From the NCBI GenBank assembly GCA_013911625.1, contig JACESW010000001.1:1-41040 (forward strand): a stretch of DNA of 41,040 nucleotides, read 5' to 3'. The position numbers and the translations under genes were made by a program. Under the pieces are notes generated by a model. That model was not told the origin of the DNA. It did not search any database and was given only the letters and a program-made list of their open reading frames with translations. Below are positions 16,789 through 34,977 of the stretch, piece by piece (positions within the stretch are counted from its first letter, which is position 1; each line of letters starts with the position of its first letter). The stretch is from Cryomorphaceae bacterium (GTDB lineage: Bacteria; Bacteroidota; Bacteroidia; Flavobacteriales; Schleiferiaceae).

Positions 16789-17324
16789 GAGTAACTGTCG
16801 GCACAAAAGAGATTCGCTATCCTTCTTTGGATTTGACAGAGGGTATCATTCTATTTACGGGTCCTTCGGGGAGTGGCAAGACAACCTTACTCAGGGCGCT
16901 ACATGGTGAATTATTGGTTAAAGATTCATTTGAGAATTGGCCTCAGAATAATACGGCCATGATGCCGCAGCAAAATACCTGGATACCATATTTGAAGATA
17001 GGTATTCAATTGCGACAATTTGGTGGACCAAATTCAGAGTTAATTGCGCGCCAATTACAGCTCGAAAGACAGTTAGAAAAGCACCCAAATGAATTGAGTG
17101 TCGGGCAGCTACAAAGATTCTCACTCGCCTTAACCCTAAGCTTGGATAGTTCTGTTTTTCTCTTGGATGAGCCTACTAGCGCACTTGACGACGATCTCGC
17201 TGACCTCGTGTTTGCGCTGATAGATGAAAAATTAAAAGAATCGGACCAAATAACTATTGTTTCCGTGACTCACGACCCTCGGATGAAAAAATACTTTAGT
17301 ACCGCTAAAACTTGGCAGCTATGA
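16785..17324 (+). CDS. ABC transporter ATP-binding protein (LolD/MacB-like, short)
   Basis: A compact 179-residue ABC ATPase. Walker A is GPSGSGKTT (about residues 25-33), the signature is LSVGQLQR rather than LSGGQ, Walker B is VFLLDEPTSALD and the H-loop is VTHDP. A Q-loop-like MPQQN is present. It is about 40 residues shorter than LolD, lacking part of the antiparallel beta region. Its start and stop overlap its neighbours by four bases (ATGA), and the next gene is an FtsX-like permease, so the two should form one transporter of the LolCDE/MacB superfamily. The following CFFCG proteins suggest a metal-related role rather than lipoprotein sorting; that is inference. Confidence 0.88.
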   Translation: MRVTVGTKEIRYPSLDLTEGIILFTGPSGSGKTTLLRALHGELLVKDSFENWPQNNTAMMPQQNTWIPYLKIGIQLRQFGGPNSELIARQLQLERQLEKHPNELSVGQLQRFSLALTLSLDSSVFLLDEPTSALDDDLADLVFALIDEKLKESDQITIVSVTHDPRMKKYFSTAKTWQL

Positions 17325-18403
17325 GAAGACTAACAGCAGTCTGGAGCGGTCAATTGCGTGCCAAAGGTATTCAATACGTTATGCTCACAATGCTCACAAT
17401 TCTTGTTAGTGGCGGCTTTTATGTCTCTCGAATTACAGAATCGTACATTTTTAACAAATGGACGGAGAGTGCGCAATATGCTGATGTCATAGTTAGTTAC
17501 AAAGGATCTCCTTTGCAGATTGTTGCAAGCACATTGTTTAGATTGGAAAATCCAACCGGAAACATCGATAGTACTTCATCTGCCTATTGGGATAAACACC
17601 CTATGGTTACAGCCTCTTGTCCCGTATCATTAGGAGATAATATTCAAGGCTACCCACTAATTGGAACAACTCTCGATTATTTTGATTGGATGAAGATCGA
17701 TTTAGTCGAGGGTCATTTGCCCGATAGCGATGAAGACGTGGTCGTAGATATATCCTTGGCTGAAACGCTAGGATTGAGCATTGGCGATGAACTTCACTCC
17801 TCGCACGGCAGTGCTTCCAATGGTGAGCAGCACGAGCATCACCACTTGCGAATAGTTGGTCTTGTAAAAGCTTCAAGAAATGCGGATCAACAGGCCTTTT
17901 TTACGACGACGACTGCGTATTACGGTATGCACAATAACCAAGGCAAAGGGGAAATAACAGCCCTCATGCTGCGTTTGAAGAGCAAATCAGCGTTGGTCAT
18001 GTTGCCAAGGGTCTTCGATCAACGCCCCAATGAGCAAGGAGCTTTTCCGGTCTTCATTTTTGCTCAATTGCAGAAGCAATGGGCACCAACCCTGGCTACT
18101 ATGAAAAAGTATAGTGTGGTCATACCGGCGATACTTTTGCTCATGTTTGCCTTAATTGTAGCCTATCTCAACGGGACTGAGAAGGAATCAAAGCGCTTTT
18201 ACACCTTACAGAAATTACCAAGGTTCGAAATCTTTTGGCTGCAACAAGGTTTATCAATCTTTGCTGTATTAGTCGGTACGGTGCTCACCTTTTTTGTCTT
18301 AAACAGCATAGCTGGGTTTTACATACATAAAGAACAAGGAGCCATTTTCTTACCGTTGTTCGTCGCGGTTCTCCTCGGTATCTTTCATTCCAAGCGACCA
18401 TGA
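17321..18403 (+). CDS. FtsX-like ABC permease with His-rich extracytoplasmic loop
   Basis: A 360-residue permease with MacB/LolC-type topology: one N-terminal membrane helix (about 17-37), a large extracytoplasmic domain (about 40-260) and three C-terminal helices (about 265-285, 310-335 and 340-356). The large domain carries a His-rich patch, with His159, His162 and then HEHHH at about 171-175 next to a short flexible GSASNGEQ stretch, which looks like a metal-collecting loop. Start at ATG 17321 overlaps the ATPase stop (ATGA); an in-frame TTG nine bases earlier is less likely. The 3' end overlaps the first CFFCG-protein gene by four bases. Substrate is unknown; a divalent metal such as zinc is the best guess from the loop and the neighbours. 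Confidence 0.85.
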   Translation: MRRLTAVWSGQLRAKGIQYVMLTMLTILVSGGFYVSRITESYIFNKWTESAQYADVIVSYKGSPLQIVASTLFRLENPTGNIDSTSSAYWDKHPMVTASCPVSLGDNIQGYPLIGTTLDYFDWMKIDLVEGHLPDSDEDVVVDISLAETLGLSIGDELHSSHGSASNGEQHEHHHLRIVGLVKASRNADQQAFFTTTTAYYGMHNNQGKGEITALMLRLKSKSALVMLPRVFDQRPNEQGAFPVFIFAQLQKQWAPTLATMKKYSVVIPAILLLMFALIVAYLNGTEKESKRFYTLQKLPRFEIFWLQQGLSIFAVLVGTVLTFFVLNSIAGFYIHKEQGAIFLPLFVAVLLGIFHSKRP

Positions 18404-23756: not shown

Positions 23757-25184
23757 ATGACGCCAAGAACCATCCATACCACTGCGCAGAAAGCGCTAAA
23801 AATCAATCTTAACTCAGACATCTACGGCACTTTCGCGGAAATTGGCGCGGGTCAAGAGACAGTTCGTGAGTTTTTTAGAGCCGGTGCTGCTTCAGGTACA
23901 ATTGCAAAAGCAATGAGCGCCTATGATAAGGCATTCTCAGATGATATCTATGGTATTGAAGAGGACAAGCGCTACGTCACTCAGAGTAGGCTGCAGAAAA
24001 TGCTCCGTCACGAATACGGTTTGATCGAAAAGCGTCTTGACAGAGCTAAGCATCCTAGTAAGACCTACTTTGCATATGCTAATACAGTTGCCACTATAAA
24101 CTTTGCCAAGACATTTAAGGGTCATGGGTGGATGGGGATTCGTTTTCAGACGGCACCAACGAAAGAAACCAATGATATTATTTTACATTTTCGTTTACAC
24201 GAAAACGAGGCTAAGCATCAGCAAGAAACAGTTGGACGTCTAGGTACTAATCTCATATATGGAGCTTACAAGTTCTATGATGACCCAAAGCTTTTTCTAG
24301 AGAGCCTCTACGACAATATTGATAAAGACGCTATTGAGATTGATTTGATCAACTTTAATGGCCCTGATTTCGCTCAAGTAGATAATCGTTTGATGTCTCT
24401 TCAATTGATTAAAAACGGTTACACTGATGCAGTCATTTTTGGACCAGAAGGGAACAACTTGTTACCGGCTGAATTGCTTTATAAAAAGCATGTACTGGCA
24501 ATGCGCGGTTCTTTTAGGCCTGTAACCAAGGTAAATATGGACATGATTAAGTGTGGCTATGACATGTTTACCAACGATAAAAAGGTCGATTCAGATAGAA
24601 CCGTTGTATTGTGGGAAATCACCTTGAATAACTTGTTGGCTGACGGAGAACTCGATGAACAAGACTTCTTGGACAGGGCGGAAATCTTATGTGCCTTGGG
24701 TCAAACAGTTCTGATTTCGAATTATCAAGAGTATTATAAGCTCGTAGATTACTTTGGCCGTTTCTCCAAAAAGCGCCAAGGATTGGTGATGGGTGTAAAT
24801 AACCTTACCGAGTTGTTTAAGGACAAATACTACCGCGGCTTGCAGGGTGGTATTTTAGAAGCATTTGGACGTATTTTCTCCAAGGATTTGAAGATTCTCG
24901 TGTATCCTTTTATAGATCATGACAATGAAGAGAAAATCATGCGTAAAGAAGATGCAGAAGTACATCCTCGTTTTAGACCAATCATCAACTATCTCATCTT
25001 CCACAATAGAATTCTCGATATCGAAGACTTCGATCACGACATTACCAACATATTCTCGCGAGAGGTATTAAATCAAATACGCGCTGGTGAGGAAGGTTGG
25101 TCAGATTGTCTGCCGGAATATGTACATCACGTAATTCGAGACAAAAAACTCTTCGGATATACAGGCGAAGCTCAAGAAGCTTAA
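23757..25184 (+). CDS. Conserved protein of unknown function (475 residues)
   Basis: A soluble 475-residue protein with no signal peptide or membrane helix. I recognise the sequence as a widespread bacterial family, with the N-terminal hallmark YGTFAEIGAGQETVREFF and then GAASGTIAKAMSAYD, but no function is established that I know of. Related entries sometimes carry labels such as nicotinate-nucleotide adenylyltransferase or TonB-dependent receptor; I see neither a nucleotidyl-transferase HxGH motif nor any outer-membrane feature, so those labels look wrong. Other notable parts: ANTVATINFAKTFKGHGWMGIRFQ and a C-terminal DHDNEEKIMRKEDAEVHPRFRP. The stop overlaps the photolyase stop by four bases. 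Confidence 0.8.
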   Translation: MTPRTIHTTAQKALKINLNSDIYGTFAEIGAGQETVREFFRAGAASGTIAKAMSAYDKAFSDDIYGIEEDKRYVTQSRLQKMLRHEYGLIEKRLDRAKHPSKTYFAYANTVATINFAKTFKGHGWMGIRFQTAPTKETNDIILHFRLHENEAKHQQETVGRLGTNLIYGAYKFYDDPKLFLESLYDNIDKDAIEIDLINFNGPDFAQVDNRLMSLQLIKNGYTDAVIFGPEGNNLLPAELLYKKHVLAMRGSFRPVTKVNMDMIKCGYDMFTNDKKVDSDRTVVLWEITLNNLLADGELDEQDFLDRAEILCALGQTVLISNYQEYYKLVDYFGRFSKKRQGLVMGVNNLTELFKDKYYRGLQGGILEAFGRIFSKDLKILVYPFIDHDNEEKIMRKEDAEVHPRFRPIINYLIFHNRILDIEDFDHDITNIFSREVLNQIRAGEEGWSDCLPEYVHHVIRDKKLFGYTGEAQEA

Positions 25185-26491
25185 GCGTTCGCCAAAGCTG
25201 TCTTAAATCGGTCTAAACATCTTTCTCTAGCCCATTTGTGCTCAACAATAGGCTCTGGATATTGGGTTGTACCATATTCTGGAACCCAGCGTTTGACATA
25301 CTTTAGTTGTTTGTCAAACTTCTCAAGTTGAGACGTAGGATTGAATACTCTGAAATATGGTGCGGCATCTAAACCCGATCCACTAGCCCATTGCCAACCA
25401 CCTATATTACTAGCCAAATCAAAATCCAATAACTTTGCTGCGAAGTAGCGCTCCCCTAGTCTCCAATCTATAAGTAAATGCTTCGTTAGAAAACTAGCAA
25501 CAATCATTCGGACACGATTGTGCATATAGCCTGTAGTGTTCAATTCCCGCATACCTGCATCAACAATTGGATATCCTGTCCTACCCTCACACCAAGCTTT
25601 GAAATGTTCCATATTGGTTTCCCACGGAATAAGGTCATATTTTGGTTTGATGGCCTTTTCTCGACTTTCCGGAAAATAATACAAAGCCATTTGAAAGAAA
25701 TCTCTCCATATGAGTTCGTTGACGAAGGTGTCATTACCGACAAGACCTTTACGCAGAAGGCTTCGCACGGAGATTGATCCGAATCTTAAGTGCATACCAA
25801 GTCTAGTCGTTCCCTTTTCATTGGCAGGGAAATTACGAGTAGCATCGTACGTCTTAATAATACTCTCGTCTACTCTGGATGACGGCAATGAAACCTCAGT
25901 ACATGTAAAGCCCATAGACTCTAATGACGGAATAGTTATTGGCTGTTGTTTGAAGAAACTCTTGAAATACTTGGTATTGGGATAAGCTTTAGCATGGTAG
26001 TCGGTCAGTTTCTTGCGCCAGGCCTTACCATAAGGACTAAATACTAAATACGGCGTACCGTCGCCTTTCACTACTTCGTTCTTTTCGAAAACGACATGAT
26101 CTTTCGCCCCGACCACGGGAATTTCATGCTCACTCCAGAATTTAAAAATATCTTCATCTCGCTCACGAGCATAGGGTTCATAGTCACGATTCAGAAATAC
26201 ACTTTTTACAGTATACGTTTGATTAAGAATTTTCATGGCCTCTGCTGGCGTACCATAGAATGCGTGTAAGGAGCTACCTATCCCTGTTAACTGGTCTTGC
26301 AACTCGGTTAATCGTTGATGTAAAAACGACACTCGAGCATCAGATTTATCCTCAAGTTTATCCAATATGTTTCTATCAAAAATAAAAATAGGCACCACTG
26401 GATGCCCACTTTTCAGCGCTTTCCAAAGTCCGGCGTTGTCTTCCAGTCTAAGGTCGCGTCTAAACCAAAAAATACTTACTTCTTTCATCAT
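25181..26491 (-). CDS. phrB: Class I DNA photolyase (cryptochrome/photolyase family)
   Basis: A 436-residue FAD flavoprotein that splits UV-induced pyrimidine dimers with blue light. The N-terminal antenna domain starts [13 protein letters not shown]. In the FAD domain the electron-transfer triad aligns with E. coli Trp306/359/382: Trp290 (LIPWETN), Trp343 ([12 protein letters not shown]) and Trp366 (GGWQW), at identical spacing 53 and 23. Asn362 matches the FAD-N5 asparagine typical of CPD photolyases, and Trp368 the substrate-stacking Trp384. FRVFNPTSQ completes the domain. This places it with class I CPD photolyases rather than FeS or DASH types. It overlaps folE by four bases (ATGA) and is the last gene of the carotenoid-pterin run, so it is probably light-induced with it. 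Confidence 0.94.
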
Positions 26492-27159
26492 CTAAATGAC
26501 TCGAGAAATGCTTTTTTGTTCATGTCTTTTTCAAATTCTCCATGGAAGGACATCGTAATAGTCGAACTACCGTCATCTTCAATACCTCTAGTTTTTACAC
26601 ACATGTGATCAGCTTCAAGGTAGACAGCAACATCATTAGTACCTAGACCGTCCATTAATGCCTCTGCTATTTGCCTGGTAAGTCGTTCTTGAACCTGTGG
26701 TCGCTTGGCATAGTGTCTAACAATACGGTTCAACTTACTAAGGCCAACAACGCTGCCGTTCGGAATGTAGGCGACGTGACACTTCCCAATAATTGGTACG
26801 AAATGATGCTCACAGTGCGAATGGACTTTGATGTCCTTTTCAATGAGCATTTCATTGTATTCAAACTTGTTGGAGAACAACTTCATCTCTGGCTTATTAT
26901 CGGGATTAAGACCCGCAAAAGCTTCCTTAACGTACATTTTAGCAACGCGCAAAGGCGTGCCGTTTAAGCTATCGTCATTTAGATCAAGTCCTAAGATGTC
27001 CATGATATCACGGAATTTTTCAGCGATCATACTGATTTTCTCATCTTCTGACATATCGAAGGCGTCAGAACGCAGTGGAGTGTCTATTGAAGTGCCTAAA
27101 TGAGCTTCTACCAACTGTTCTAATTGCTCAGCAGTGTAGCCCTTTTCGTGGTGTGTCAT
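26488..27159 (-). CDS. folE: GTP cyclohydrolase I (FolE)
   Basis: A 223-residue enzyme that turns GTP into 7,8-dihydroneopterin triphosphate, the first step to folate and other pterins. The zinc site is visible: Cys116 and His119 in [11 protein letters not shown] and Cys187 in DHMCVKT; the catalytic HH pair (His118-His119) is there too. [23 protein letters not shown] is the strong family signature. I prefer the ATG at 27159 (MTHHEKG), seven bases after the PTPS stop; an ATG at 27186 would add nine residues and overlap the previous gene by 20 bases. Being located between the pterin synthase and photolyase genes suggests it supplies pterin for the photolyase antenna or another light-linked use. 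Confidence 0.95.
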
Positions 27160-27166
27160 AATACTT

Positions 27167-27577
27167 TTATTTGCCGCTGTATTCAACGTAGTTACGTGGC
27201 GTCTCGTAAAGCGTCACTTTTAATTCTAAGTCAGTATTGAGTACGATTCTCAACCTAGTCCATATAACATAAGCTATATGCTCTGCGGTGGGATTAAGCG
27301 TTTTAAACTCCTCTACTTGTACGTTCAGATTTTTGTGATCTAGATAGTCTTCCACCTCTTTTTTAATATGATCTCGGAGGACTTTCATATCTATGAGATA
27401 CCCAGTCTTAGGGTCGACTTCCCCTGTAACATGAACGATGAGTTCATAGTTGTGACCGTGATAATACTCATTATTGCACTTCCCAAAAGTGGCTGCGTTT
27501 TCAGCAGTGCTCAATTCAGGATTATGTAACCTGTGTGCGGCATTAAAATGTGCTCTTCTACATACCGTGATTCTCAT
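27167..27577 (-). CDS. 6-pyruvoyl-tetrahydropterin / 6-carboxytetrahydropterin synthase family (PTPS/QueD)
   Basis: A 136-residue enzyme that acts on dihydroneopterin triphosphate, the FolE product. Zinc ligands His15 (AAHRL), His40 and His42 (HGHNY); catalytic Cys34 in FGKCNN and Asp80-His81 in LDHKNLN; late acidic residue in [13 protein letters not shown]. The wording [14 protein letters not shown] and [11 protein letters not shown] is rather like eukaryotic PTPS, which makes 6-pyruvoyl-tetrahydropterin; QueD of queuosine synthesis is the alternative and cannot be excluded by eye. No queC/queE/queF or sepiapterin reductase gene is in the window. It starts within the end of idi (20-base overlap) and is followed by folE. 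Confidence 0.88.
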
Positions 27578-28088
27578 TATGCCAATACTTTAAGAATCGG
27601 TCATAGATGATTTTGAACCATTCAGTGTACTTCTCGGGATGAGCTTTCATGTCTTCAGCCACCCAATCCACTGATTTCCAATCAAAACTATCGACCTCTT
27701 CAGGGTTAATATTTGGATCTTCGTTGTAACGGGCAATGAGGACATGGTCTAGCTCATGCTCTGTTAAATCATTGTCCAACTCTGCTTTGTAGATAAATGA
27801 AAAAATACGTTTGACCGAACAGGTAAAACCCATCTCTTCCATCAATCTTCTTGTGGCAGCTTCTTCCACAGTTTCCCCATCTCTAGGATGAGAACAGCAC
27901 GTATTCGTCCAAAGCCCACCACTATGGTACTTATGTAGAGCACGTCTTTGAAGTAAAATTTCGTTGTTGTCGTTCATGGCGAAAACAGAGAATGCACGGT
28001 GCAGTTTCGCCTTTCGGTGCGCTTCCATTTTCTCCATCAGCCCAATCGGATTATCGTCCGAATCGACCAGGATAACTTGTTCAAGCAT
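27558..28088 (-). CDS. idi: Isopentenyl-diphosphate delta-isomerase, type 1
   Basis: A 176-residue Nudix-fold enzyme that interconverts isopentenyl and dimethylallyl diphosphate, supplying carotenoid precursors. The active-site motif is GGLWTNTCCSHPRDGE with the catalytic cysteine at 64 or 65 and His67; the Nudix helix is EEAATRRLMEEMGF; metal-binding Glu and His residues recur in TEHELDHVL. It matches type 1 (divalent metal, no flavin). It lies nine bases after crtB and overlaps the PTPS gene, so its place in the run links precursor supply to phytoene synthesis. Confidence 0.95.
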   Translation of the reverse strand: MLEQVILVDSDDNPIGLMEKMEAHRKAKLHRAFSVFAMNDNNEILLQRRALHKYHSGGLWTNTCCSHPRDGETVEEAATRRLMEEMGFTCSVKRIFSFIYKAELDNDLTEHELDHVLIARYNEDPNINPEEVDSFDWKSVDWVAEDMKAHPEKYTEWFKIIYDRFLKYWHNENHGM

Positions 28089-28097
28089 TATAATATG

Positions 28098-28934
28098 TTA
28101 AATCCAGTTTATGGTGTGTCTAACGTACGAACTTAAAAACAATCCGTACTTCCTTTTGTTCGAAATACGCACACGCTCATTCAAAATGATATCTGCATGT
28201 GTATTACAAATCTTCTTGAATAGACTGTAGTAATATACGTATGCTATATAGACCCCAAATCGTGCTCCTTTCGGAAGTTGTTTAATCCCTTCGTATCCTG
28301 CCTTAAAGTCAATGTCTATATCGGCCTCAATCTCAGCTTTTACCCGCTCGTTAAATTCATTTAGGTCTACTCCTGGAAAATATGTTCTTCCCAAAGCATG
28401 GTAATCGGCGTGTAAATCTCTTAGGAAATTAATCTTCTGGAAGGCAGAACCTAACTGCATTGCAGGCTTTTTAAGCTCTTGGTATCGTTTCTCATTGCCA
28501 TCAACAAAAACCTTCAGACACATGAGTCCAACTACTTCGGCACTACCTAGGATGTATGCCTTATAACCTTCCTCGTCATAATCGTTTTTGTACAAATCCA
28601 TTTCCATGGACTTCAAGAATGTTTCGATTAGATCTCTATCAATATCAAAAGCATTCACCACTTGCTGAAAACTATTAAGTATAGGATTCAAACTGATCTT
28701 CTCGTCTAGTGCCAGATAAGTATCTTTCCAGAAGCGTTCAAGCAATTCTTTCTGAGGGTAGTCCTCGAACGTATCAACGATTTCGTCTGCGAATCTAACG
28801 AAGCCATAGATGGCATATATGGGATCGTGGTACTTCTTATCAAGACCTAGAATACCTAGAGAGAACGACGTACTATACGCTTTAGTCGTCATTCTTGATG
28901 TGCGAATACTTACGCTGTCAAAGAGTGCTTTCAT
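28098..28934 (-). CDS. crtB: Phytoene synthase
   Basis: A 278-residue squalene/phytoene synthase that joins two geranylgeranyl diphosphates to phytoene. Both aspartate-rich, Mg-binding motifs are intact: DEIVD (Asp50, Asp54) and DLHAD (Asp173, Asp177) in [19 protein letters not shown]. The N-terminal [14 protein letters not shown] is the usual substrate-pocket stretch. Length is typical. The start overlaps the crtI stop by four bases, so the two are probably translationally coupled. No cyclase, hydroxylase or ketolase gene is in the window; those would have to be elsewhere for end products such as zeaxanthin. Confidence 0.96.
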
Positions 28935-30418
28935 ACCGCTTTCTTTATTTGATAGTCCTTCGCGATTTCTTTACTCACAACTTCCCCACTAATCAAGCAT
29001 GGAGGAACTCCAGGTCCAGGCGTAGTAAGTTGTCCAGCGAAGTACAAATTGCTCACTTTTTTACTCTTCAGTCTAGGCTTAAGAATTGCGGTTTGGTCTA
29101 ATGTGTTGGCAAGGCCGTATGCGTTGCCTTTAAAACTGTTGTATTCTGATTTAAAATCCTGATATGCAAAACTCCGTTTTACCACTACCCTGTCACGAAT
29201 TGAGGAACCGGTAAATTCTTCAAGACGATCCATCATCAAGTTATAATATTTTTCGCGGACTTCCTCTGTATCACCATCCATCCCAGGAGCCGTTGGCATG
29301 AGCAGGAACATATTTTCACAGCCCTCGGGCGCTACACTTGAATCTGTTTTTGACGGAGCACTCGCATAGAAAAGAGGTTTTGTAGGCCATTTAGGGTCTG
29401 TATAAATCTCATGTGCATGCTGATCCAATTCATGGTCGAAAAACAGGTTGTGATGCAAGACGTTGGGTACTTCACCTTTAATACCCAAATAATAGAGTAA
29501 TGATGAAGGAGCCATCTTGCGTTTGTTCCAATATTCTGGAGTGTATTCCCTGTATTCAGGAGAACTGATGACCTGATCAATATGATGGTAATCAGCACCT
29601 CCCACAACAATATCTGCGGTAAATGAACCTCCTTTAGTCAATACACTAACTATTCGATTATTTGAATATTTGAATCCTGTTACTTCCGCTGATGTTCTGA
29701 ATTTCACCCCCTGCTCCTTAGCAACACGAACCATTCCTTGTATAATCTCGTTCATACCGTTCATGGGATACCAAGTCCCCAACGACATATCGGCGTAATT
29801 CATTAAGCTGTACAGTGCTGGCGTATTTTGCGGTAAGGCACCAAGAAATAAAACAGGGAATTCAAGGATTGCCTTGAGTTTAGGATGCGAGCTTACTTCT
29901 GCAACATGCTTCCGAATGTCTTTGAGCATATCCAACTGAAACAGACCTTTGACAATCCTCAAGTCCATAAATTCTGTTAGAGAGCGCCCTGGACGAAAAA
30001 CAAGATCCTTAATACCAACTTCGTATTTGTAAGCACCTTGCTTCAAAAACTTACGCAAACGTAACCCTGATCCAGGGTCTAATCTATCGAACATGGCTTC
30101 AAGCGCTTCCATATCGGCGCTTTGGTCCTCATGATCGTTTGGACCAAACACCACACGATAAGAAGGATCCAATCGTATTAAGTTATAGAGGTCTTCTACC
30201 TTGGTGTCGAATTCTGAAAAGTAGCGTTCGAATACATCAGGCATCCAATACCAACTTGGTCCCATATCGAAAGTGAAACCGTCTTTTTTCCACGAGCGTG
30301 CTCGTCCTCCAAGTTGGTCGTTTTTCTCTAGGACAGTAACATCGTACCCTTCACGGGCTAAAAAGGATGCGGCACTTAGGCCTGCAAACCCAGAACCAAT
30401 GACTATAACTGATTTCAT
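28931..30418 (-). CDS. crtI: Phytoene desaturase (CrtI type)
   Basis: A 495-residue FAD-dependent carotenoid desaturase that converts phytoene stepwise, usually to lycopene. N-terminal FAD motif [21 protein letters not shown] with GG-motif LGGRARSW, the FDMGPSWYW substrate region, and the C-terminal [23 protein letters not shown] signature of bacterial CrtI. Length is normal. It starts 22 bases after the ECF sigma gene and overlaps crtB by four bases. Lycopene as product is the family default; neurosporene or other products cannot be excluded. Confidence 0.96.
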
Positions 30419-30440
30419 TTGATAAGGCGGTAGGCTGTGA

Positions 30441-30947
30441 TTAGTGGCGTTGATCGGCGAGCTTTTCCATCATTTTCTTACGAGCTAAGAAAATTCGGGA
30501 TTTAACTGTTCCCAGAGGAATGTTAAAGTGTTCAGCAATTTCCTCGTACTTGTAACCTTCATAATGCATGAAAAATGCTTCTGTGTAATGTGGCTCAATG
30601 GAATTAATTTGTTCCATAATGTAGTCGTTATCCACATTCGCGTCGGTAAGAGTCGTTCTACTTGCCTCCTTGCTATTCAGAAAAAACTGGCTTTCAGTTT
30701 CATCAACAAAAGTGTTTTGTTGCTTTTTGCGACGATAGTTATTGATAAAGGTATTCTTCATGATGGTATACAACCATCCCTTGAGATTCGTCCCTGTAGC
30801 GAACTTATCTTTATTTTTAAGTGCCTTGAAATATGTATCCTGGATTAAGTCCTGGGCATCGTCGTGACGCTTGGTCAACTTCATTGCTAACTGATGCAAA
30901 AAGTCGTGCTCACGATCAATTAATTCTCCAAATTCTGCGGTTGACAT
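30441..30947 (-). CDS. ECF-type RNA polymerase sigma factor
   Basis: A 168-residue group 4 sigma factor. Region 2 spans about residues 10-75 ([18 protein letters not shown], then [21 protein letters not shown]) and region 4 about 110-160 ([46 protein letters not shown]). The start at ATG 30947 ([10 protein letters not shown]) is preferred over an upstream ATG at 30995, because the latter would place the start inside the promoter/operator region. There is no anti-sigma gene beside it; the CarH-like regulator just upstream probably replaces that control. First gene of the run crtI-crtB-idi-PTPS-folE-photolyase, which it may help transcribe, as CarQ does in Myxococcus. Confidence 0.92.
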
Positions 30948-30973
30948 AAAGACAATGTTTAAGGTTGCTTCTT

Positions 30974-31032
30974 CAAAGTTAAACAATATGTTCAAACATT
31001 TTGTCTAACAATGAATAAAATTTATTAAACAA
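30974..31032 (-). promoter_or_regulatory. Promoter of the photoprotection run with AACA-type repeat operator
   Basis: On the minus strand TAACTTTG (30981-30974) is an exact TAnnTTTG -7 box, 26 bases before the sigma-factor ATG. On the plus strand four similar repeats cover and precede it: GTTAAACAA (30978-30986), GTTCAAACAT (30990-30999), GTCTAACAA (31003-31011) and ATTAAACAA (31024-31032). Their ACA cores are 13, 12 and 21 bases apart, close to one or two helical turns, and the first overlaps the -7 box. Tandem, helically phased repeats with an ACA core are what I recall for CarH operators. No -33 TTG stands at the normal spacing. Confidence 0.6.
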
Positions 31033-31045
31033 ATCTCAATACCCG

Positions 31046-31924
31046 TTAAATTTGGGCAGTCAAATCCTTTAATGTACTGTAAATGTGAATGTTATCTCCG
31101 AAAGTGTTTTCGGAAAAATCATTGAATTGGTACCCTGTTAGGTGTACCTCTACCCCACGATCGTGTATAAGATCGTCCAAGTCACGCAGGTATTCTGGCA
31201 GATATTCGACATCTGGGTTTGTCGTGAAGACTGATATAAGTGCATCTACCGTTTGATTGTCTAGCAAATCCGTCAGGTATTCCTTCGGTAGACTTTGGCC
31301 AAGATAAATTACCCTTTCGCCGCGTTCTTTAAGAACATAGGCTAAGTAAAGAAGTCCAATCTCGTGAAGCTCATTTGCTGGCAGGAAAAGCGCAAATGTT
31401 TTTCCACCATCGCTCGCATGAAGTTCATCAAGGGCAGAGTACAACTTTTGGCGAATCATAGATGACATAAAGTGCTCTTGAGAAATACTTACAGATCCGC
31501 TGAGCCAAAGTTTTCCTAATTCTTGGATATAATCTCCAATAACTTTTTGAAAGGTATTATGGATTCCATGCTTATCGATGCAAGTTGCCATGATGGCTTC
31601 GAACCGCTCAATATCAAAGTTCAGTGTACTTAATTTCAACTCATTGAGTTCATAAGCGTAATTTCCCTCGTAAGGATCAGCCTCTAATGCTGATTTTGCA
31701 ATTTCCTCTGGAGCGAGCTTTGCGATTTGACCAATCTTCCAATCGTGTTCTAAAAGTATACATACATTTAAAATTACCCGCAGGTCATCATCACTGTAAA
31801 AGCGAATGTTTGTACTTGTTCTCTTAGGTGTAATTAGTTTGTGACGTTGCTCCCAAGCACGAATGGTGTGGGCTTTAATACCGCTAAGCTGCTCTAAATC
31901 TTTTATGGAATAACGTGACTTCAC
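31046..31924 (-). CDS. CarH/LitR-like MerR-family regulator with B12-binding domain (light sensor candidate)
   Basis: A 292-residue two-part regulator. Residues 1-70 are a MerR winged helix (YSIKDLEQLSGIKAHTIRAW, then RFYSDDDLRVI). Residues about 95-165 are the four-helix cap and 175-290 the Rossmann B12 domain. The cap has the CarH signature Trp140-x9-Glu150-His151 (LWLSGSVSISQEH), and the B12 lower-ligand motif ExHxxG is Glu185-Leu-His187-Glu-Ile-Gly190. In CarH these bind adenosylcobalamin; in the dark the protein is a tetramer that represses carotenoid genes, and light breaks the Co-C bond and releases DNA. The residue after Trp140 is Leu, where Thermus CarH has the upper-ligand His132. 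The gene precedes the sigma-carotenoid-photolyase run and is divergent from prfC. Confidence 0.92.
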   Translation of the reverse strand: MKSRYSIKDLEQLSGIKAHTIRAWEQRHKLITPKRTSTNIRFYSDDDLRVILNVCILLEHDWKIGQIAKLAPEEIAKSALEADPYEGNYAYELNELKLSTLNFDIERFEAIMATCIDKHGIHNTFQKVIGDYIQELGKLWLSGSVSISQEHFMSSMIRQKLYSALDELHASDGGKTFALFLPANELHEIGLLYLAYVLKERGERVIYLGQSLPKEYLTDLLDNQTVDALISVFTTNPDVEYLPEYLRDLDDLIHDRGVEVHLTGYQFNDFSENTFGDNIHIYSTLKDLTAQI

Positions 31925-32032: not shown

Positions 32033-33613
32033 ATGTCAATCGAAAAGGAAATCAGTATTCGCAGAACCTTTGGGATTATTTCCCATCCCGATGCTGGAAA
32101 AACCACATTAACAGAAAAACTTCTGTTATTTGGTGGTGCTATTCAAGAGGCCGGTGCCGTAAAAAGTAATAAGGTTAAAAAGTCTGCGACATCCGATTTT
32201 ATGGAGATTGAAAAGCAACGTGGAATATCGGTTGCGACCTCTGTGATGGGATTCTATTACAAAGACAAGAAGATCAATATCTTGGACACACCTGGTCACC
32301 AAGATTTTGCTGAAGATACTTACCGTACACTAACCGCTTGTGATAGTGTTATCGTGGTAATTGATGTTGCGAAAGGCGTTGAGCCTCAGACAGAAAAACT
32401 AGTACAGGTTTGTCGCATGCGTGCAACACCGATCATAGTGTTCATTAATAAATTGGATCGCGAAGGAAAAGACGGTTTCGATCTTATTGATGAAGTTGAA
32501 CAGAAACTCGGTTTGACGCTATGTCCCCTATCCTGGCCCATCGGTATGGGACAGCGTTTTCAAGGGGTGTATAATATGTGGGAAAAGAATCTCAATCTTT
32601 ACAGTGCCGACAACAAACAGAAAATTAGTGAGGGAACCTCTTTCGAGGATATTAGTTCACGTGAACTGGACGAATATGTAGGTGATGAGGCCGCTACAGA
32701 ACTTAGAAATGACCTTGAGCTTTTAGAAGCTGTGTACCCGCAATTTGACCGTTCCGAGTATTTGAGAGGAGCTCTATGTCCCGTTTTTTTTGGTTCTGCG
32801 TTAAATAATTTCGGTGTACGCGAATTGCTTGATTGCTTTCAAGAAATAGCACCTGAGCCTCAGCCTAAGGAGGCCGAGCAAAGACTTGTCCGACCAAATG
32901 AGAGTGAATTCTCTGGATTCGTGTTTAAAATTCACGCAAACATCGATCCAAACCATAGAAACAGAATCGCCTTTCTCAAAGTAGTCAGCGGTAAGTTTGA
33001 ACGCAATAAAAACTATGTTCACACTAGAAGTGGTAGGTCATTTAGAGTTAGTGCCCCGACTGCCTTTATGGCTTCTAAAAAGAGTACTATTGACGAAGCA
33101 TTTCCTGGAGATATTATAGGTATACCGGATAACGGTACATTCAGAATTGGAGATACCCTAACTTCAAAAGAACAGTTGCACTATAAAGGCATTCCTTCGT
33201 TCTCACCAGAGCACTTCAGATTCATCAACAATGCTGATCCATTAAAAGCCAAGCAGTTGAACAAAGGAATTGACCAGTTAATGGATGAAGGTGTAGCACA
33301 GTTGTTTACCCTTAAACAAAACAATAGGAAGATTATTGGTACAGTGGGCGCATTGCAGTATGAAGTGATTCAATACCGTCTCGAACATGAGTATAATGCC
33401 AAGTGCTCATATGAGAATTTTCCAGCATTTAAAGCTTGTTGGATTGAAAGCAATGACGAGGATCAACTTAAAGAGTTTTCTACTTTGAAACAACGCTACC
33501 TAGCAGAAGACAAGTACGGCCGACTCGTATTCTTAGCCGATTCTCAGTTTTCTTTGCAAATGGCCCAAGACAAGTTTGATAAGATTACGTTCCATATGAA
33601 GAGCGAATTCTAA
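32033..33613 (+). CDS. prfC: Peptide chain release factor 3 (RF3)
   Basis: A 526-residue translational GTPase that recycles RF1 and RF2 after termination. GTP-binding motifs: G1 SHPDAGKTTL (residues 17-26), G2-like KQRGISVATSV, G3 DTPGHQDF and G4 NKLDRE. The segment EAGAVKSNKVKKSATSDFMEIEKQ and the C-terminal ENFPAFKACWI are typical of RF3 rather than EF-G, and the length is right. Its stop overlaps the next start by one base (TAATG). Confidence 0.96.
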   Translation: MSIEKEISIRRTFGIISHPDAGKTTLTEKLLLFGGAIQEAGAVKSNKVKKSATSDFMEIEKQRGISVATSVMGFYYKDKKINILDTPGHQDFAEDTYRTLTACDSVIVVIDVAKGVEPQTEKLVQVCRMRATPIIVFINKLDREGKDGFDLIDEVEQKLGLTLCPLSWPIGMGQRFQGVYNMWEKNLNLYSADNKQKISEGTSFEDISSRELDEYVGDEAATELRNDLELLEAVYPQFDRSEYLRGALCPVFFGSALNNFGVRELLDCFQEIAPEPQPKEAEQRLVRPNESEFSGFVFKIHANIDPNHRNRIAFLKVVSGKFERNKNYVHTRSGRSFRVSAPTAFMASKKSTIDEAFPGDIIGIPDNGTFRIGDTLTSKEQLHYKGIPSFSPEHFRFINNADPLKAKQLNKGIDQLMDEGVAQLFTLKQNNRKIIGTVGALQYEVIQYRLEHEYNAKCSYENFPAFKACWIESNDEDQLKEFSTLKQRYLAEDKYGRLVFLADSQFSLQMAQDKFDKITFHMKSEF

Positions 33614-34977
33614 TGAGTCACATTATAAACTACAGACTTAATCAGTTCTCTTGGGCAATAGCTGCGTTATTGCTTCTTCCGCTATTGTTTACAAAAGGTA
33701 TGTTCTTTGACGGGCTGACCTATGCTTCAATTGCTCGAAATATAAATGAGGGAGTTGGCACGTTATGGGTTCCATCGTACACGCCAACTATTCATCCAGA
33801 ATTTTACGAGCACCCACCCTTCTCATTTGGACTACACAGTATTTTCTATCGTTTATTCGGGGATGAGCCCTGGGTTGACCGTATCTACCCATATACCATG
33901 TACGGTCTTAGTGTGTTGATGCTTCGAAGAATATGGGTTTTGTTTGTACCTGCGGGTCACAGGGCTTGGATTCCTCAGCTCCTGTGGACGCTAACACCAA
34001 CGGTAATATGGGTACATCAAAACAACATGTTAGAAGCACCTCTTTCTGCCGCAGTGCTATGTGTAGTTTGGCTTCTTTTTGAGGGAACAATGAAAAAGAA
34101 TTACTTCTGGAGTGTACTTGCGGGGGTTGTCTTCTTCTTCAGTTTAGGCATTAAGGGTCCAGTGAGTTTATTCCCTTTGATGACCTTACCTATCATGGCC
34201 ACATTGTATGCTGAGCGAAGAAAAGCTGCGTTGGTTTCGATGTCTGTCATGATAGTCGTATTTAGCACTCTATTCTCATACTTTTATTTGTACCAACCGG
34301 CCTTTGAAAGTTTCTTTTCTACGTATCTCGACCGACAACTTTTACCAACTCTTTCTGGAAACCGAGAACAAGCGGGTGGAGCTCTAGAAAGTATTCTAGA
34401 AGTTTTAAAGCAGTTGATCCTTCCTATTCTCGTCACTATTGTATTTAGGTGGAGAAAAAAAGAAGCTTATACTTTGCAACGTGGAAGTGTATTCTTCTTC
34501 CTACTCGCCTTATGCGGTACACTTCCTTTTCTATTTATGGACCGCCAACATCATTATTATTTTATGCCATCCATGGCTTTCTGGATGATGGGGTTTGCTA
34601 TTCATCTTGCACAACATGAGTATCCATGGTCGATTCAGCGGAAAAAATGGGTGAAAGTAATTTCACTTTCGAACTTGTGTAGTTGGGTTGTAGCCATTGG
34701 CCTAAGTATCTATTTCTCAAAGAGTCCTTCTAGAGATAAACACGTTATTCATGCACTGGAGTCAATCGACGAGTTATATAAACCTAGCACTATAAAAGTA
34801 GATGCCTTGGCTGAAAACTGGCGTTTGGCAGCGATTGTAGAGAGATATACAGATTACCATTTCACGGAAAGCGATGCGGCATTCTATATTTCAAATATTC
34901 CAGGAGAAATTGCTGGATATGAATTTGTAGAAAACTATGCTCAAACAGATATCTATCTATATAAAAAGAGCCGTTAA
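33613..34977 (+). CDS. GT39/ArnT-like membrane glycosyltransferase
   Basis: A 454-residue polytopic membrane protein. The first loop after helix 1 holds MFFDGLTYASIARNI and HPEFYEHPPFSFGLHSIF, the acidic and EHPP patches typical of the GT39/ArnT/PMT (C-type) fold, which use lipid-linked sugars. About nine to ten hydrophobic segments follow (for example VLAGVVFFFSLGIKGP and VVAIGLSIYF), and a short soluble C-terminal part (about 385-454). The sugar and the acceptor cannot be told from sequence. Coupled to prfC by a one-base overlap, though the products are unrelated in function. The stop codon lies in the stem of the terminator shared with fabI. Confidence 0.85.
   Translation: MSHIINYRLNQFSWAIAALLLLPLLFTKGMFFDGLTYASIARNINEGVGTLWVPSYTPTIHPEFYEHPPFSFGLHSIFYRLFGDEPWVDRIYPYTMYGLSVLMLRRIWVLFVPAGHRAWIPQLLWTLTPTVIWVHQNNMLEAPLSAAVLCVVWLLFEGTMKKNYFWSVLAGVVFFFSLGIKGPVSLFPLMTLPIMATLYAERRKAALVSMSVMIVVFSTLFSYFYLYQPAFESFFSTYLDRQLLPTLSGNREQAGGALESILEVLKQLILPILVTIVFRWRKKEAYTLQRGSVFFFLLALCGTLPFLFMDRQHHYYFMPSMAFWMMGFAIHLAQHEYPWSIQRKKWVKVISLSNLCSWVVAIGLSIYFSKSPSRDKHVIHALESIDELYKPSTIKVDALAENWRLAAIVERYTDYHFTESDAAFYISNIPGEIAGYEFVENYAQTDIYLYKKSR

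Follow-up and report, generated by a model that had tools for sequence, protein, structure and literature searches.

The class I CarH/LitR regulators of Thermus, Bacillus, Myxococcus and Streptomyces are characterized by a MerR-type helix-turn-helix (HTH) joined to B12-binding domains, by residues of the cap and cobalt site, and by an operator half-site lying over the promoter. These features, the B12-binding domains only in part, are recognizable at a locus of a Cryomorphaceae bacterium (Flavobacteriales, Schleiferiaceae; GenBank assembly GCA_013911625.1), located within the first 41,040 nucleotides of contig JACESW010000001.1 (the whole of this stretch is hereafter called the window), in which a gene for a CarH-like regulator is followed by seven genes encoding an extracytoplasmic function (ECF) sigma factor, enzymes of carotenoid and pterin synthesis and a photolyase. 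The locus differs from the class I systems in its operator, which consists of inverted repeats, usually two dyads, placed before an operon headed by the ECF sigma gene. In Streptomyces coelicolor, LitR and an ECF sigma factor reportedly serve the light-induced crt genes (title cited in PMC6739363). The same combination of a LitR-type regulator, an ECF sigma factor and crt genes is found here, with the difference that in the window it forms one colinear run that also includes idi, a gene of the 6-pyruvoyl-tetrahydropterin synthase (PTPS) family, folE and a photolyase gene. We consider it probable that this run is a B12-photoreceptor-controlled sunlight-defence operon.

Other described systems share parts of this gene set. 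The class II LitR regulon of Pseudomonas includes a light-induced photolyase gene, a cryptochrome-like gene, folE and the pterin genes folM and folX, and its regulator, which has one of the two B12 domains, responds in P. mendocina to a LOV protein (PMC9758184); these genes lie in separate units, and the consulted part of that paper mentions neither crt genes nor an ECF sigma factor. In the singlet-oxygen regulon of Rhodobacter (RpoE/ChrR), an alternative sigma factor drives the photolyase gene phrA and folE2, and a short-chain dehydrogenase/reductase (SDR) gene appears in the regulon table (PMC7074977). There the anti-sigma factor ChrR is the sensor, the genes occupy separate loci, the enzyme is FolE2 and not FolE, and the sections consulted do not mention CarH. 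Light or singlet-oxygen defence thus recruits pterin enzymes elsewhere too, for a reason left unstated in these sections. Cyanobacteria have a biopterin pathway, and a link between unconjugated pterin and UV-A and blue-light responses has been suggested (PMC3546692 and PMC5041015, sections consulted). Its PTPS carries the motif CxxxxxHGH, described as the signature of biopterin-type PTPS (PTPS-II; PMC5041015) and shared by the enzyme of the window, whose gene, as a difference, is tied to crt and photolyase genes. A photolyase gene cluster is enriched in proteorhodopsin-bearing Flavobacteriia, in a paper whose main text names neither pterin, GTP cyclohydrolase nor MerR (PMC5932025), and a light-induced carotenoid is described for Chryseobacterium in the consulted part of another (PMC7064467). 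A literature search of titles and the beginnings of abstracts found no description of the operon, which is no proof of novelty, most subscription journals being outside its scope. The original prediction, which was made for the window from its letters alone, had called the pterin enzymes unusual in such a run; this is a fair statement, although folE and photolyase genes already belong to the Pseudomonas and Rhodobacter regulons and are here part of a larger conserved set. The new points are the extra pterin branch inside a putative CarH-sigma-carotenoid-photolyase operon, and a candidate Bacteroidota operator.

The features of the run are as follows.

31046..31924, minus strand: carH-like regulator gene, GTG start; MerR HTH, B12-binding helical bundle and B12-binding fold (Pfam, structure match, alignment)
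31002..31031, no strand assigned: upstream operator-like dyad TGTTTA-N18-TAGACA, one mismatch to the dyad
30956..30985, no strand assigned: downstream operator-like dyad TGTTTA-N18-TAAACA, perfect (the only perfect copy in the window), overlapping the -7 element
30974..30981, minus strand: TAACTTTG, fitting the Bacteroidota -7 promoter element TAnnTTTG
30441..30947, minus strand: ECF sigma factor gene, 168 amino acids from ATG (PF04542, PF08281)
28931..30418, minus strand: crtI-family desaturase gene, over the NCBIfam cut-off for bifunctional phytoene desaturase/3,4-desaturase CrtID
28098..28934, minus strand: crtB-like phytoene synthase gene (SQS_PSY; Pfam/NCBIfam, subtype models below cut-off)
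27558..28088, minus strand: idi, isopentenyl-diphosphate isomerase type 1 (TIGR02150 over cut-off)
27167..27577, minus strand: PTPS-family gene, motif CNNEYYHGH (CxxxxxHGH); the closest solved structures are animal 6-pyruvoyl-tetrahydropterin synthases
26488..27186, minus strand: folE, GTP cyclohydrolase I (Pfam/NCBIfam), start codon uncertain; second copy in most relatives examined
25181..26491, minus strand: class I-type cyclobutane pyrimidine dimer (CPD) photolyase gene (Pfam/NCBIfam and alignments)

All eight open reading frames (ORFs) of the original prediction, the CarH-like gene and the seven behind it, were recovered from the ORF list at their places on the minus strand, and the gene names given to them agree with Pfam and NCBIfam. 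The tight packing that it had described, with gaps of at most 22 bases and mostly overlapping genes, is borne out by the ORF coordinates: a gap of 22 bases separates the sigma gene from crtI, and one of 9 bases crtB from idi, while crtI and crtB overlap by 4, idi and PTPS by 20, PTPS and folE by 20, and folE and the photolyase gene by 4 bases. The likelier start of the sigma gene is the ATG at 30947 rather than the TTG at 30995; carH and the sigma gene are then 98 bases apart, and this interval contains both dyads. The sigma factor consists of regions 2 and 4 only (PF04542, 59.2 bits; PF08281, 53.6 bits). An anti-sigma gene had been described as absent from the run, and neither the window nor the mapped relatives have an ORF of at least 70 amino acids between the sigma gene and crtI, the genomes elsewhere not having been searched; such an absence would be expected if the sigma factor were controlled by transcription through CarH. 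The CrtI protein scores 732 against an NCBIfam cut-off of 640 for bifunctional phytoene desaturase/3,4-desaturase, a hint of a 3,4-didehydro carotenoid.

The conservation of the run was assessed in relatives, whose loci and genomes are cited below by L and G numbers. A CarH search of genome contigs gave at least 584 relatives, the best 80 of which were examined; many loci come from metagenome-assembled genomes of unstated completeness, so absences are provisional. A sigma relative (identity-filtered) is present in 43 of these 80 loci. The order carH-sigma-crtI-crtB without idi accounts for 24 of the 43, from other groups than those with the Flavobacteriales run, and in eight no gene of the set besides carH and sigma is present; L061 has the photolyase gene alone in addition, and L067 has crtI, crtB, idi and the photolyase gene. 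The Flavobacteriales run is present in the other nine, complete through PTPS, folE and the photolyase gene in seven (L001, L003, L005, L006, L011, L058 and L060) and reaching the contig end in two (L002 and L016). When 119 genomes of the order were searched with the PTPS protein, 68 had a match. Among the best 30 PTPS loci, crtB-idi lies upstream in 16, idi without crtB in 12, and neither in two; carH, the sigma gene and crtI precede crtB-idi in all 16 loci of the first kind (15 newly fetched and L003), with an opposite-strand ORF between carH and the sigma gene in L126 and L129.

Gene order was tabulated for 31 selected loci, sigma-less cases and contig ends among them. The regulator gene is present in 30, the sigma gene, crtI and crtB in 29 each, idi in 28, PTPS in 25, folE and the photolyase gene in 23 each, a flavin-reductase-like gene in 14 and an SDR gene in 13; the run ends without a photolyase gene in L120, L121 and L127, and folE is missing from L122. 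The CarH proteins of the selected loci, apart from L001, L002 and L003, are about 35-48% identical to that of the window, and recurrence of the order in loci with CarH mostly 36-48% identical makes the arrangement more than chance. The comparison of gene order across genomes, which had been proposed together with the original prediction, gave a set and order conserved over deep divergence. It could be supposed that the genes are adjacent through slow rearrangement and not through joint function, the more so as conservation in the nearest clade extends to the flanking prfC and the gene of a 475-amino-acid protein. We find this hardly credible, since prfC is absent beside the run in six loci (L006, L121, L125, L126, L127 and L129) that keep the run itself without its neighbourhood, carH-sigma-crtI-crtB is maintained without idi in the 24 loci from other groups, and the gaps are small. 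The run is conserved, and it is very probably a single light-defence operon under CarH control.

Different arrangements were also observed. In loci of the order that have idi-PTPS without crtB (L104, L105, L108, L110-L116, L118, L119 and L081; 12 of the best 30 PTPS loci are of this kind), idi-PTPS is often followed within two genes by a gene whose start presumably resembles mannose-6-phosphate isomerase. Two small genomes of the order have PTPS-folE-crtI-crtB-x-idi with a divergent SDR-like gene (L135, 2852-8458; L137, 2393-7999), and a MerR-type gene with a CarH-like N-terminus lies in the same stretch in L137 and L138. A PTPS relative of 44-49% identity is kept in 13 genomes of about 0.6 Mb (e.g., G040 and G125), an odd retention for very reduced genomes.

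The CarH-like protein has a MerR-type N-terminal DNA-binding domain (PF13411, 56.1 bits against a cut-off of 21.6) and a helical-bundle B12 domain (PF02607, 29.7 bits against 23), and its residues 4-244 match chains of Thermus CarH (3whp and 5c8d) with an E-value of 4e-18. In all 22 aligned CarH sequences, W140, E150, H151 and H187 are invariant (W-x9-EH and ELHEIG); by comparison with Thermus CarH, we take W-x9-EH to be the cap motif and H187 the lower-ligand histidine. Three points weigh against B12 sensing: the B12-binding fold PF02310 scores 23.6 bits, below its cut-off of 32.1, the NCBIfam CarH equivalog NF052513 reaches 95.8 bits against a cut-off of 400, and W140 is followed by Leu141, where Thermus CarH has a histidine. 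That histidine presumably caps the cobalt after photolysis and may not be universal in the family. Genome content was assessed in a hand-chosen set of 25 genomes, 21 with the run and four others (G008, G009, G010 and G016); such statements rest on relatives, the nearest of which is Bacteroidetes bacterium IN_BCD_1 (L001/G001), whose CarH is 95% identical to that of the window. Schleiferiaceae and Cryomorphaceae recur among the few homologous proteins with a named source. Cob(I)alamin adenosyltransferase (PF01923) was found in 24 of the 25, which counts as support because this enzyme is needed to make the presumed chromophore, adenosylcobalamin. The regulator is thus predicted to bind B12 and to respond to light.

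The 98-base interval before the sigma gene contains an inverted repeat, TGTTTA-N18/19-TAAACA, that was absent from the original prediction. The window has three matches to this dyad with at most one mismatch, two of them before the sigma gene, against 0.22 expected from shuffles; the third, a stray copy with one mismatch at 17535-17564, lies inside an ORF (17312-18403) and is probably due to chance. In the relatives, usually two dyads precede the sigma gene, and the half-site pair at a spacing of 24/25 bases is present in 58 of 62 sigma-upstream regions, compared with a mean of 0.07 and a maximum of 2 in 200 rounds of first-order Markov controls. Among the four misses (L008, L079, L112 and L139), L008 proves to have a perfect dyad after correction of its start, and L112 and L139 are the same place, with no adjacent carH. 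Counted by place, the dyad occurs at 59 of 60 carH/sigma places, these loci being related to one another and not independent events; the exception is L079, which has no dyad at up to two half-site variants, the nearest form having two mismatches. The published CarH operator half-site is nAnnTnnACAn, and the Thermus and Bacillus operators are 11-base direct repeats (PMC8156234, part consulted). The TnnACA-type half-site found here fits this consensus, and the dyad overlies the promoter region.

Some findings argue against reading the repeat as a CarH operator. It was defined on 26 of the carH/sigma places counted, although 33 of the 34 outside the defining set (Cytophagales, Bacteroidales and others) also carry it. 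The repeats are inverted and 24/25 bases apart, with no 11-base tandem direct repeats; the latter geometry, that of Thermus and Bacillus, is not known to be a hallmark of the family. Among the 35 sigma-less carH loci of the best 80, 15 lack a dyad altogether; beyond the carH/sigma type, the operator is therefore not universal. The last point also favours a second explanation, in which the main switch of the operon is the ECF sigma factor, acting at its own promoter, and the repeat is that promoter. ECF sigma factors often autoregulate, most loci have the sigma gene at the head of the run, and the promoter region and the repeat overlap. We nevertheless judge it improbable, because the repeat is also present without a sigma gene, before crtI in L164 (carH-crtI-crtB) and within 250 bases before carH in eight of the 35 sigma-less loci (L080 and L049 included), and is absent at a sigma place without adjacent carH (L139). 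In addition, the half-site agrees with the CarH consensus, and the repeat includes a TAnnTTTG of the housekeeping type, the Bacteroidota -7 promoter consensus; no convincing -33 element was found before the sigma gene in the window sequence. In L133 a dyad also precedes carH.

The exact operator pattern gave 16 matches in 15 of the 119 genomes, against two for the control. Thirteen lie at carH-operon loci (11 before the sigma gene, one before carH and one before crtI) and three elsewhere. The latter are operator-like dyads before other genes (L160, position 6288; L161, 8102; L162, 6100), which encode a 139-amino-acid protein in two genomes and, in the third, a protein that we take to resemble a flavin oxidoreductase. 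A candidate promoter for the sigma factor was considered and rejected. This sequence, GGGTTTAGAANCTTA, precedes the SDR gene in L156 and in L157, and PTPS in L083 (three of three hits). A near form of it, GGKTTAGAAWCTTA, was matched 20 times in 18 of 295 genomes, less often than the reversed pattern used as a control (54 matches). Of the 19 matches examined, 13 fall within ORFs, and G002 has two matches, one of which repeats the L157 sequence.

Under control by CarH, the locus would work as follows. In the dark, CarH with adenosylcobalamin would occupy the two inverted-repeat operators over the sigma promoter and block transcription of sigma-crtI-crtB-idi-PTPS-folE-photolyase. Light would break the cofactor, CarH would fall off, and the housekeeping polymerase would produce a single message from all seven genes, the signal being passed on by the sigma factor to further promoters. 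The predicted outputs are a CPD photolyase, a reduced pterin resembling tetrahydrobiopterin, and a carotenoid together with additional isoprenoid precursor. A single unit under light and B12 control had been proposed from spacing alone; it now gains support from the conserved order, the CarH-type operator and the adenosyltransferase, the light response itself being predicted.

The pterin branch would proceed from GTP to dihydroneopterin triphosphate (FolE), then to 6-pyruvoyl-tetrahydropterin (PTPS), and finally to reduction by the SDR, which in the clade of the window is encoded beside another photolyase/cryptochrome gene. Among solved structures, the PTPS of the window matches the animal enzyme (1b66) with an E-value of 2e-32 and QueD (4ntm) with 1e-9, and CxxxxxHGH is present in it and in 21 of 21 operon copies. 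Both gene types have additional copies: folE is doubled in 20 of the 25 genomes, and 23 have two or three PTPS-family genes. We assumed at first sight that the second PTPS copy was QueD, an assignment that proved wrong or at least unproven, as it has CxxxxxHGH and the one copy tested is closest to animal PTPS. Our best inference for the operon product is a tetrahydrobiopterin-like pterin, and gene context is a stronger argument for an extra pterin than the motif.

Several observations count against a separate biopterin role. CxxxxxHGH occurs in nine of nine distinct non-operon PTPS copies as well (that of L200 also fits CxxxHGH), so the motif alone does not prove such a role for the operon copy, and for the one non-operon PTPS tested, comparison with solved structures gives a ranking like that of the operon copy. 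The PTPS of the window also fits ExxHGH, the folate-type motif, as do three of the 21 operon copies and some non-operon copies. QueC is over its cut-off in 11 of the 25 genomes. FolB, found in 23 of the 25 genomes, has no match in G005 and G006, and folE was found only in the operon in G006, so that there the operon copy may serve folate too. These observations could be accommodated if PTPS and folE served folate, as the methenyltetrahydrofolate (MTHF) antenna of the photolyase, or queuosine, with no separate pterin; both enzyme families are used in these syntheses, and folate is a known photolyase antenna. We regard this alternative as unlikely. The QueC matches, found in 13 of the 25 genomes, all have 20-28 bits over 30-125 of 210 model positions and probably represent other PP-loop enzymes (in a control, 12 of 14 genomes gave matches, scores not shown), while the FolB matches and the separate folE of most genomes point to an ordinary folate route there. 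Linkage to an SDR gene, described below, would fit side-chain reduction.

The photolyase itself also bears on this question. It has PF00875 (DNA_photolyase, 146 bits) and PF03441 (FAD_binding_7, 254 bits), matches six photolyase chains with E-values below 1e-60 and can be aligned with class I CPD photolyases along most of the protein, the NCBIfam photolyase subtype models remaining below their cut-offs. Conserved stretches, including GGWQW, are kept and presumably have roles in repair and at the flavin site. The E. coli positions N108 and E109, which we take to be MTHF contacts and a subtype feature, align with Y107 and A108 in the window protein; this argues against the folate antenna and leaves room for other antennas.

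A further explanation is that an aromatic amino acid hydroxylase, needed in the light, uses the pterin as its cofactor. Tetrahydrobiopterin has this function in such hydroxylases, and one hydroxylase gene of this kind is present in the nearest relative, G001. PF00351 was found in only four of the 25 genomes, however, so the pterin genes cannot owe their conservation to this tetrahydrobiopterin consumer (the only one searched for), and we consider the explanation very improbable. Rhodopsin was found in nine of the 25; the run is therefore not tied to proteorhodopsin.

In 11 loci (L005, L006, L123, L124, L125, L126 and L128-L132), an SDR gene and a flavin-reductase-like gene, whose domains were checked by Pfam in L005 and L006, are located between folE and the photolyase gene, and nine of the 16 loci with carH-sigma-crtI-crtB-idi before PTPS have the resulting ten-gene form. 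The clade of the window has no such pair inside the run. In G001, G002, G005 and G006, an SDR gene whose product is 52-54% identical to the SDR of L005 is followed by a flavin-reductase-like gene, and then by a cryptochrome/photolyase gene (G001 and G002), by genes for a DPRP photolyase and a DASH-type protein (G006), or by the contig end (G005). The pair, being present in the main run and at a second locus, thus adjoins photolyase-family genes at two kinds of place. An SDR beside pterin genes would fit reduction of the pyruvoyl side chain, although its sequence does not name its function: an assignment as sepiapterin reductase failed, the best solved relatives being generic SDRs, and no sepiapterin reductase is among the 60 rows of SDR structure matches listed, which speaks against the proposed route. 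SDR, flavin-reductase-like and photolyase/cryptochrome genes are also grouped in L156 (9691-12462), L157 (116-2887) and L159 (3229-7437), in L156 divergently from an aromatic amino acid lyase gene. In two Cytophagales loci (L083 and L084), PTPS-folE and an SDR gene stand apart from carH, with no photolyase gene in the stretch; the pterin module can therefore also stand alone.

The neighbourhood of the run in the window includes, on the plus strand, the gene of the 475-amino-acid protein (23757-25184), which adjoins the operon, is conserved in the nearest clade and has no Pfam or NCBIfam match, and that of a 454-amino-acid protein (33613-34977) with no Pfam match at an E-value of 1e-5. An Rfam scan of the window gave nothing at gathering scores.

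The retention of the gene set in order in many relatives suggests that a pterin is part of sunlight defence. More tentatively, and with a minor but real chance of being right, a dedicated unconjugated tetrahydropterin may be made in the light as an antenna or electron-donating partner of photolyase/cryptochrome proteins, in the window of a photolyase that lacks the folate contacts of the E. coli type; a role of the pterin in photorepair would explain why FolE, PTPS, SDR and flavin-reductase-like genes stand directly before photolyase-family genes at both loci. In these bacteria, few of which have an aromatic hydroxylase, extra folE and PTPS copies would be tied to light defence by a common regulator and a common operator. 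Having a specific CarH operator candidate for Bacteroidota would make light regulons predictable across the phylum. If the pterin were a cofactor of photolyase or cryptochrome, it would represent a new type of antenna; if it acted as a screen or quencher, it would provide a parallel in heterotrophs to the cyanobacterial pterins.

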